This document shows, in pieces, positions 27,694 through 37,651 of a stretch of 64,000 nt of DNA. The notes under the pieces were generated by a model. That model searched no databases. It was not told the DNA's origin and saw nothing but the letters and a program-made list of their open reading frames with translations. A program made the position numbers and the translations under genes. Within the stretch, counting starts at the first letter, position 1. Every line of letters begins with the position of its first letter. Source of the stretch: Arcobacter aquimarinus (GTDB taxonomy: Bacteria > Campylobacterota > Campylobacteria > Campylobacterales > Arcobacteraceae); contig NZ_CP030944.1 in NCBI RefSeq assembly GCF_013177635.1, forward strand, positions 1,488,001 through 1,552,000, in the 5' to 3' direction.

Positions 27694-28728
27694 TTAGAAA
27701 CCTTTTAATATTTCAATAACATCTGTTTTACTAACTTCATTAGTAATCTTACAATTTCCTATTCCAACAGGTAAAATAAACTTGATTTTATTATCCAATG
27801 ATTTTTTATCTAAGAAAAAATGCTCATAAAAATCATCAACATCTTTTATTTTATAAGTTGTTGGGATATCATACTTTTCAAGTAAATTTTTCACTCTTAA
27901 CGCTTCTTCTTGACTCATAAGTCCTATTTTTACAGCTAAAGCATTTGCCATACACATACCAATCCCTACAGCTTCACCATGTAAATATGTATCATAGTTT
28001 GTCTCATTTTCAATAACATGTCCAAAAGTATGACCATAATTTAAAGCTGCTCTTATTCCTAACTCTTTTTCATCTTGTGAAACCACATCAGCTTTTGTTT
28101 GAACAGATTTTGCAATAGCTGTTTGAATGTTTTTTTCATCATTTAAATCATTTTGCTCTAACCATTCGAAAAAATCTTTATTAAAAGTAACTGCCATTTT
28201 TACAATCTCAGCAACTCCTGCACCAAACTCTCTTTTTGGTAAAGTTTTTAGCATTGATGGGTCAATATAAACTGCAATTGGTTGATGAAAAACACCAATT
28301 AAATTTTTCCCAAATTTATTATTTATTCCAGTTTTTCCACCAACACTTGCATCAACTTGAGAAAGTAAAGTTGTTGGTATTTGTACAAAATCAATACCTC
28401 TTTGATAAATTGAAGCAGCAAATCCCGTCATATCTCCAATAACTCCACCACCAAAAGCCACAAGAAGTGATTTTCTATCTAATCTTTTTTCAAAACAATG
28501 TTCTAAAATAGACTCTAATGTTTGCATATGCTTATACTCTTCACCATCAGGGATTGTACAAACACTTAACTCTCGTGCTTTTAGCTTTGATTTTAAATAC
28601 TCTAAATGAAAACCACTAACAGTAGGATTTGTAACTATTACTACTTTTCTATCAAAATATAACTCTTTTAGCTCTTCTATAAAAATTTCGTATGAATTAT
28701 CATGGGGTAAATTTATTTTAACAGTCAT
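27694..28728 (-). CDS. aroB: 3-dehydroquinate synthase
   Basis: 344 residues, normal length. NAD-binding and metal motifs of DHQ synthase are visible: DGEEYKHMQTLESI, LVAFGGGVIGDMTGFAASIYQRG, PTTLLSQVDASVGGKTGIN, LNYGHTFGHVIE (metal His) and LHGEAVGIGM. It converts DAHP to 3-dehydroquinate, the second step of the shikimate pathway. First gene of the seven-gene minus-strand array 28728-20829; a divergent promoter region with the helicase lies at 28729-28866. Confidence 0.97.
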   Translation of the reverse strand: MTVKINLPHDNSYEIFIEELKELYFDRKVVIVTNPTVSGFHLEYLKSKLKARELSVCTIPDGEEYKHMQTLESILEHCFEKRLDRKSLLVAFGGGVIGDMTGFAASIYQRGIDFVQIPTTLLSQVDASVGGKTGINNKFGKNLIGVFHQPIAVYIDPSMLKTLPKREFGAGVAEIVKMAVTFNKDFFEWLEQNDLNDEKNIQTAIAKSVQTKADVVSQDEKELGIRAALNYGHTFGHVIENETNYDTYLHGEAVGIGMCMANALAVKIGLMSQEEALRVKNLLEKYDIPTTYKIKDVDDFYEHFFLDKKSLDNKIKFILPVGIGNCKITNEVSKTDVIEILKGF

Positions 28729-28830
28729 TTTATTTATCCAAATTATTTATTTAATAAGGTTTCTATATTAGCTAAATTGAGGTTAAACAAGGCTAAATTA
28801 TTTTAAATTCAAATCTAATATTCTTTTGGA

Positions 28831-28866
28831 TATAATAAAATAAAATCAAGATTAAAAGGATTTCTT
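28831..28866 (+). promoter_or_regulatory. -10 element and ribosome site of the DEAD-box helicase gene
   Basis: TATAAT at 28831-28836 is a good -10 box; the -35 is poor. AAAAGGA at 28854-28860 is a good ribosome site, 6 bp before ATT at 28867. This placement supports initiation at that ATT and argues against the TTG at 28969, which has no such site near it. Confidence 0.6.
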
Positions 28867-30174
28867 ATTAAAACTTTTACTTCATTAAACTTAGATGAAA
28901 AAATCATAAAAGCATTAGAAGATTTAAACTACGAAGAAGCTACACAAATACAAACAAAAACAATTCCTTTGGCACTTAAAAAAAGAGATGTTTTAGCAGC
29001 TGCACAAAGTGGTACAGGTAAAACTGCTGCTTTTTTATTGCCAATTTTAGAAGAACTATTAGAAAAAAAACAACCTAATACTCCTATTTTAAGAGCTTTA
29101 ATTTTAGTTCCAACAAGAGAATTAGCAAATCAAATAGCAAAAGCCGTTGATGATTATGCTAAATATATGGATATTGAAAAATTAGCTGTTTTTGGTGGAG
29201 TTTCAGCAAAAGAACAGGAAAGAAAAATAGTAAAAGGTATTGATATTTTAGTTGCTACAAGTGGTAGATTGATGGAGCACATAAAAAATAAAAGCGTTGA
29301 TTTATCAAGTGTTACAACTGTTGTAATTGATGAAGTTGATACTATGCTTGATATGGGATTTTTAGAAGATATCGAATCTATTTTACCAAATGTTGGACCT
29401 CATAGACAAATCATGATGTTTAGTGCAACAATGAATCAAAATGTAAAAAAACTTGCAAAAGAGTTTTTAACAGATCCTGTTGTAATTGAAGTAGCAAGCC
29501 AGCGTTCAACTGTAAAAATAATTGAGCAACAAATAGTTTTAGTTGATGAAAATAAAAAAGCTGAACTATTGTCTTATTTAATTGGGTCAAGAAACTACTC
29601 TCAAGTTTTAGTTTTTGTTAATATGAAAAAAGAGGCTGATGAATTAGTAGAACACCTTGAACTTGATGGACTAAGTGCTTTATGTATACATGGAGATGTA
29701 AGACAAAGTGCAAGAGGAAAAGCTCTTAAAAAGTTTAAATCAGGAGATATTAGAGTTCTAGTAGCAACAGATATTGCAGCACGTGGAATTGATATTGAAC
29801 TTTTACCTGTTGTTGTAAACTTTGCATTACCAGAAACAATTGCTGATTATACACACAGAATTGGAAGAACAGGACGTGCTGGAAACGCAGGAACTGCAAT
29901 CACTCTTTTAAGTGTAAAAGATTATAAGTTTATGATTGAAATTGAAAAAGAGTTGATTATAAATATTCCAAGAATTGAAGTTGAAGGTTTTGAAACAACA
30001 GAAAAAAAACCAAGACTTTTCAAAGCAAGACCAAAACAACTAAGTGTTAAAAAAGCTGAAGCAAAAAAAACTGCTAAAAAAACAGGTTACACAAAAACTA
30101 ATGCACCTGAAAAAAAACCTGCTAAAAAAAGAAAAACAACAAAAAGAGATTCAAATAGAAGTTTTGGAAAATAA
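28867..30174 (+). CDS. DEAD-box RNA helicase (probable AUU start)
   Basis: 435 residues from ATT at 28867. The first ATG/GTG/TTG in frame is TTG at 28969, but starting there would delete the conserved Q-motif region (LNLDEKIIKALEDLNY then ATQIQTKTIP), which is clearly encoded upstream. Motif I AQSGTGKT, Ia PTRELANQ, II DEVD (a variant of DEAD), III SAT, and motifs V/VI (ATDIAARGID, HRIGRTGRAG) are present. A Lys-rich tail (last 60 residues) probably binds RNA. It unwinds or remodels RNA in ribosome assembly or mRNA turnover, as RhlE/DeaD types do. Which subtype is not certain. Confidence 0.9.
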   Translation: MKTFTSLNLDEKIIKALEDLNYEEATQIQTKTIPLALKKRDVLAAAQSGTGKTAAFLLPILEELLEKKQPNTPILRALILVPTRELANQIAKAVDDYAKYMDIEKLAVFGGVSAKEQERKIVKGIDILVATSGRLMEHIKNKSVDLSSVTTVVIDEVDTMLDMGFLEDIESILPNVGPHRQIMMFSATMNQNVKKLAKEFLTDPVVIEVASQRSTVKIIEQQIVLVDENKKAELLSYLIGSRNYSQVLVFVNMKKEADELVEHLELDGLSALCIHGDVRQSARGKALKKFKSGDIRVLVATDIAARGIDIELLPVVVNFALPETIADYTHRIGRTGRAGNAGTAITLLSVKDYKFMIEIEKELIINIPRIEVEGFETTEKKPRLFKARPKQLSVKKAEAKKTAKKTGYTKTNAPEKKPAKKRKTTKRDSNRSFGK

Positions 30175-37135: not shown

Positions 37136-37651
37136 TTATAGTTTTAGATTCATTCTTTTTAGAATTTCATAGGTTTTTGTCACATCATAAGTGGCACTAT
37201 GATATTTGTCTGCTTCAAATTCTATTCCATAATATAAACAAGTTTCATCAAGTTTTGGATTTTTTACTCTTCCGTTTTTTCCAAAAACATTTACAATCTT
37301 TTTATTTTCACTCATAGTACAAATGTGATTTTGAAACTTAACTCTATTATTTATATGTCTTAATTCAAAAGTTATGTTATGAGCAATCAAGGTCTCACTT
37401 TTGTAACAAAACTTTTCAAAATCTTCATCTTCACTAAAATAGGAACTATAAGATTTATCTTTTCTATAATCAAGGATTAATTCAGGAGTTAATCTATGAA
37501 CCGCATAAGAATAAAAATTAACTGGAAATCTTGAAAGATAATATCTATGAAATTTATCCAAAATTTTTAAATCTTTATCTATCTTAACTGCTGCTACTTC
37601 TATTACATCACCAATATTTGCTGTATTTGTCTCAAAATCTAAAATTATCAT
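37136..37651 (-). CDS. DnaQ-like 3'-5' exonuclease
   Basis: 171 residues. DEDDh motifs: Exo I D4-x-E6 (ILDFETNT), Exo II in LIAHNITFE, and Exo III HSATYDVTKT with the catalytic His five residues before the Asp. This is a stand-alone exonuclease domain without polymerase or helicase parts, so it is not identifiable as a subunit of Pol III. It overlaps the DUF309-like gene stop by 4 bp. It may act in repair or RNA turnover. Confidence 0.85.
   Translation of the reverse strand: MIILDFETNTANIGDVIEVAAVKIDKDLKILDKFHRYYLSRFPVNFYSYAVHRLTPELILDYRKDKSYSSYFSEDEDFEKFCYKSETLIAHNITFELRHINNRVKFQNHICTMSENKKIVNVFGKNGRVKNPKLDETCLYYGIEFEADKYHSATYDVTKTYEILKRMNLKL

Follow-up and report, generated by a model that had tools for sequence, protein, structure and literature searches.

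In Escherichia coli, the gene pcnB begins at an AUU codon and its product is poly(A) polymerase. The gene described here is likewise an RNA-metabolism gene with an AUU start, though the product of pcnB is not a helicase. Not many genes that start at non-canonical codons have been studied by experiment (PMC5472188). IF3 represses starts other than ATG, GTG and TTG, including those of infC and sigR (PMC5472188), and in vitro it disfavours weak pairs at the third base, such as AUU with the anticodon CAU (PMC10158994). The start codon of infC is ATT in E. coli and ATC in Streptomyces and is repressed by IF3 (PMC5472188). The second described case is sigR of Streptomyces, which has a GTC start and a strong RBS, is repressed by IF3, and has been mis-annotated in databases; across species its start is GTC in 32/34 and GTT in 2/34 (PMC5472188).

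The start of the helicase gene studied here is of the AUH class (AUU, AUC or AUA), which in infC confers sensitivity to IF3 (PMC5472188). Unlike infC, the gene encodes a product that is not an initiation factor, so that no direct feedback is implied. With sigR it shares a conserved non-canonical start, a strong RBS and a place outside the initiation machinery, though sigR encodes a sigma factor and uses GUC or GUU whereas the helicase uses AUH. The two cases also differ in breadth, since sigR is described for one genus and the AUH start of the helicase is found in two families and in one genome of a third. A 2018 study of the Epsilonproteobacteria, the bacterial class to which the clade also belongs, dealt with DEAD-box helicases, including RhlE subfamilies; in it, three N-terminally partial sequences were corrected as annotation errors (PMC5874925). 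The text of that study does not specify the partial genes or name a start codon; our guess is that the three belong to the AUH clade. Among the literature matches listed, we found none that deals with the start codon of this helicase.

The helicase gene and its clade

The window, i.e., the whole 64,000-nucleotide stretch analysed here, covers positions 1488001-1552000 of a 2.52-Mb single-contig genome. On its forward strand, a stop-to-stop frame at 28819-30174 contains a DEAD-box RNA helicase of 435 amino acids (28867..30174). Both helicase domains score above their cut-offs, PF00270 with 163.5 bits and PF00271 with 113.8 bits. RhlE is the best NCBIfam model, ahead of the CsdA model. Since the protein reaches 437.2 bits against the RhlE equivalog NF007882, for which the curated cut-off is 743, we name it RhlE-like only; one member from a second family (f6) scores 369.7 bits, likewise under 743. 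The closest helicase proteins among the named records of the genome collection are from Aliarcobacter and Arcobacter. At the C-terminus, many members of the window's family share a basic tail whose core is K-K/K-T-T-K-R-D (window 30100-30174); in alignment A1 it is seen in L008, L060, L071, L081 and L097, among others, and is absent from the aligned f6 members.

Upstream of the helicase lies a divergent gene on the reverse strand (27694..28728 in the list of open reading frames), which is probably an aroB-like 3-dehydroquinate synthase. In the intergenic space, the sequence TATAAT (28831..28836) is a probable -10 box, and if it is one, the 5' leader of the helicase mRNA would be about 24 nt long. 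Boxes of this kind occur within 60 nt upstream in 30/30 members of the genus and, once further patterns are allowed, in 103/126 members of the clade, both counts being made in A+T-rich DNA without a chance control. A Shine-Dalgarno site, AAAAGGA (28854..28860), ends six bases before the putative start codon ATT (28867..28869). Codons 2-34 (28870..28968) cover that end of the DEAD-box core at which the Q-motif lies, and they are followed by TTG (28969..28971), which is the first in-frame canonical codon and probably not a start. A first-pass annotation of this DNA had placed the TATAAT at 28831 and the AAAAGGA 6 nt ahead of ATT 28867, and had described the frame as free of ATG, GTG and TTG before 28969. 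All of these positions agree base by base.

To define the relatives of the gene, searches covered the genus (31 genomes), the family (104), the order (398), f6 (150) and the phylum (397). In the genus, 30/31 genomes have a match. With a profile of 35 rows, clade members reach about 540 bits or more, against 495 at most for other DEAD-box proteins among the matches listed. The clade is present in 81/104 genomes of the window's family and in 45/150 of f6, and a third family contributes one genome (G247), which was found in the order search with a single protein and placed by a tree. In the phylum draw of 397 genomes, the window's family and f6 are the only ones that exceed 600 bits. Within the window's family, no clade member is found at the threshold in 4/4 genomes of g5, 7/8 of g7 and 4/4 of g12, and thus these groups may have lost the helicase or be able to do without it.

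Of the 127 members, 126 have a readable start (81 genomes in the window's family, 44 in f6 and 1 in the third family); in the remaining one, G505, the hit begins at a contig end. The codon is AUC in 72 members, AUA in 28 and AUU in 26, and AUG, GUG or UUG in none, so that all 126 carry a start other than the canonical three, though as related sequences they do not count as 126 independent cases. In 123 of them the codon was obtained directly by alignment. The other three (G067, G068 and G041) carry 1-3 inserted codons, and re-anchoring on the Shine-Dalgarno site gave AUU, AUA and AUA. The sequence AAGGA lies 5-7 nt ahead of the codon in 122/126 members; counted on AGGN, the spacing is 6 nt in 113/126, 7 nt in 9 and 5 nt in 4. 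For comparison, AAGGA at 4-9 nt precedes 37/171 control genes of the window's genome, a set limited to genes in which no competing codon lies near the first canonical one. Among these 171 genes, which come from a 464-kb sample, TTG is the start of 22 and GTG of 9.

This survey leaves next to no chance that the missing ATG is a sequencing error or the mark of a decaying gene. Nothing but the lack of a canonical codon in the window's genome speaks for such an artefact, and it is refuted already by the AUH class in 126/126 genomes. In addition, the helicase frame of the window's genome is intact. In one draft copy (G513:C152:2367-3545, L202) seven internal stops interrupt the helicase, and the Shine-Dalgarno site and an AUC start are still kept.

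Alternative starts upstream and downstream

Could the AUH codon be an ordinary internal isoleucine codon, with translation beginning further upstream, in frame or by frameshift? Some members offer the means for it. An ATG, GTG, TTG or CTG stands upstream in frame in 14/126, either ahead of the Shine-Dalgarno site or abutting its edge. The weakest cases for the AUH start are G537 and G544, each with an ATG six codons upstream, G077, with a GTG six codons upstream, and five f6 genomes, where a TTG precedes the AUH codon by five codons. In 57/126 members, and in none of the other 69, an ATG occurs within 60 nt upstream, in whichever frame, which leaves some chance of a frameshifted start there; the window's genome has no such ATG in any frame within 60 nt of ATT 28867. 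Against these cases, 112/126 members have none of the four codons anywhere from the preceding in-frame stop to the AUH codon, and that stop is at most 5 codons away in 51/126 and at most 10 codons away in 86/126. The position of AAGGA described above also fits a start at the AUH codon and not upstream of it. Furthermore, the third base is used differently from that of inner isoleucine codons, AUC making up 57% of the clade starts (72/126) and 16% of the isoleucine codons at positions 2-360 of the same genes (699/4466), which sets the AUH codon apart from them. We thus regard an upstream start as very improbable.

A downstream start, which would be TTG 28969 in the window or codon 7 in certain relatives, would leave the conserved stretch before it untranslated. 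A gene caller confined to ATG, GTG and TTG would pick it, and codon 7 is the first canonical codon in 19/126 members. However, the first downstream canonical codon falls at many different places among the members, and within 60 codons there is none in 26/126 (a count made before three members were re-anchored). The stretch upstream of it also looks coding. Residues F4, T26 and Q29 are invariant among 35 aligned members, and the clade profile aligns from its position 2 to residue 2 of the solved structure of CshA (5ivl). Over 435 genus pairs, pN/pS is 0.45 for codons 2-34 and 0.27 for codons 35-60; the former are less constrained than the latter, yet their ratio is well under 1. These three lines of evidence make downstream starts unlikely, and initiation at 28969 would in addition delete the Q-motif, so that we hold this alternative to be barely credible.

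Initiation of the helicase at AUU 28867 is therefore well supported, as far as conservation, the Shine-Dalgarno site and the exclusion of most other starts can establish it. The codon, its conservation, the Shine-Dalgarno site and the lack of canonical alternatives in most members are all read directly from the genomes. The first-pass annotation had proposed this start and had assigned the Q-motif end to 28867-28968, in keeping with the three invariant residues, and it had recommended a comparison of the codon in related genomes. That comparison returns the AUH class in every member read and ATG in none, with AUU itself in 26. The original observation is thus confirmed as correct, and it extends more widely than had been noted.

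Probable selection on the codon and its specificity

On a tree of the 126 members, the third base of the start has changed at least 22 times among AUU, AUC and AUA, with no change to G. The tree is a quick one (LG+G4, first residue omitted) in which 33/123 inner branches are weak, and poorly supported forks could make the count of changes too high. With equal odds for each change, the chance of seeing no G in 22 changes is (2/3)^22, or about 1e-4 by our own estimate, which ignores transition bias. The weak class has been conserved though one base change would restore AUG. Since every member read has AUU, AUC or AUA and never AUG, selection appears to hold the codon within the class that IF3 disfavours. 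As with infC and sigR, selection thus seems to preserve a weak codon discriminated by IF3, and the comparison suggests that the whole helicase branch has a deliberately weak, fidelity-sensitive start that is maintained in this way.

The codon apparently accompanies the gene from locus to locus, because the upstream neighbours differ among 13 loci (compared by eye from translations only, two of them with short flanks). We also asked whether a conserved operon partner might hint at function, and the differing upstream neighbours at these loci gave no such hint. In G058 a small gene (LNENDxVVGxxFENGTIQDY..., L187:1156-1488 and L094:2806-3135) immediately precedes the helicase, and in G031 it immediately follows it. 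An exonuclease-like gene, recognised by eye (MIILDFETNS...), follows the helicase in three genera (L060:2801-3334, L094:3149-3667 and L181:3308-3838); in the window it is located at 37136-37651, about 7 kb from the helicase.

The AUH start sets this helicase apart from other helicases and from other genes of the genome. Eleven of 12 other DEAD-box homologues of the same order start with a plain ATG, and the twelfth, L222, is not counted either way. Of 13 more distant helicases (from Bacteroidales, Rhodobacteraceae and relatives, and Lutispora), 11 contain the N-terminus, and these have GTG, TTG or ATG at or beside the aligned start, as judged by eye. We scanned 410 coding open reading frames of at least 100 codons for a Shine-Dalgarno site followed by ATH, with 15 codons or more separating ATH from the first canonical codon. 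The scan covered 464 kb (the window and 20 pieces of 20 kb), or about 18% of one genome, and gave two matches, the helicase and L235:9045. The coding score of the upstream stretch is 0.54 bits per codon for the helicase and -0.16 for L235:9045. Thus, the helicase is the sole gene in the 464 kb scanned that combines a Shine-Dalgarno site, an AUH codon and a coding stretch behind it. RNA structure at the start was considered as a regulator and rejected, since the folding energy from -25 to +20 resembles that of controls (mean -1.87 in the 126 members and -2.02 in control genes).

A proposed link between IF3 and helicase dosage

We propose, with some confidence, that the helicase starts at AUU 28867, that selection keeps a codon disfavoured by IF3, and that the dosage of the helicase is in this way tied to the initiation machinery. 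The strong Shine-Dalgarno site six nucleotides upstream would guide initiation to AUU 28867. We infer that initiation uses fMet, and the initiator fMet-tRNA would then mispair with AUU at the third base. IF3 sensitivity is carried over from published work on other genes, by which strict IF3-dependent proofreading would hold initiation on the helicase mRNA low. When fidelity drops, with little IF3 per ribosome or with altered 30S subunits, initiation on this mRNA would rise. Since strict or lax proofreading by IF3 would set the rate of initiation, helicase dosage would follow the state of the initiation machinery. By analogy with the described genes, the combination of a strong Shine-Dalgarno site and an AUH codon leads us to expect low, IF3-sensitive expression of the helicase. 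Its use in regulation is something that we infer.

The AUH start could also be real and do no more than set a constant low dose of helicase, relaying no change in IF3 or ribosome state. A weak codon by itself lowers expression, and a strong Shine-Dalgarno site might just as well serve to set a fixed low rate. However, a weaker Shine-Dalgarno site with AUG, GUG or UUG could give such a rate too, and no member read has switched to that arrangement, AAGGA being kept together with AUH in 122/126. We consider a constant dose rather unlikely, with perhaps a modest chance of being correct.

A bolder form of the IF3-dependent reading is that the AUH codon has acted as a sensor of 30S quality, giving homeostatic control of a ribosome-assembly helicase since the ancestor of the clade. 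If assembly faltered, in the cold or for lack of helicase, immature or low-fidelity 30S subunits would accumulate or too little active IF3 would be available per ribosome. Poor 30S subunits or scarce IF3 would then allow more initiation at AUH and hence more helicase, and the added helicase would help the folding of rRNA and close the loop. In the cold, E. coli has immature 30S subunits and selects its initiator tRNA less faithfully (PMC7949028), and an Hfq mutant with defects in 30S maturation initiates more on alternative start codons (PMC9032327). The sensor is weakened as a proposal because the result in the cold, as that paper gives it, concerns the choice of initiator tRNA and not the fidelity of start codons. 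We regard it as speculative and doubtful.

In the window's genus, we considered infC as a further gene with an AUH start and rejected it, as UUG is the first canonical codon in the 17 loci parsed out of 30 (L089, L117-L145). The infC gene of the genus thus appears, from these loci, to start at UUG, and an AUG further down is also possible as its start. With UUG at infC, the classical IF3 loop seems to be absent from the genus, and it is the helicase that holds the sensitive codon instead. The interpretation in the first-pass annotation, by which the helicase may also be autoregulated in the manner of infC and pcnB, is therefore supported in part. An infC-like loop for the helicase is not implied, since the helicase is not IF3; in autoregulation of the infC type the product itself represses the codon, and the product here is a DEAD-box helicase.

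Since the clade appears to start at AUH, gene callers that accept only ATG, GTG and TTG would be expected to truncate the protein, which would lose its Q-motif. For a weakness that is itself selected, the comparison gives clean evidence, as the codon rotates among AUU, AUC and AUA and no member read has AUG. The helicase clade provides a natural series in which to ask what purpose IF3-sensitive starts may serve.
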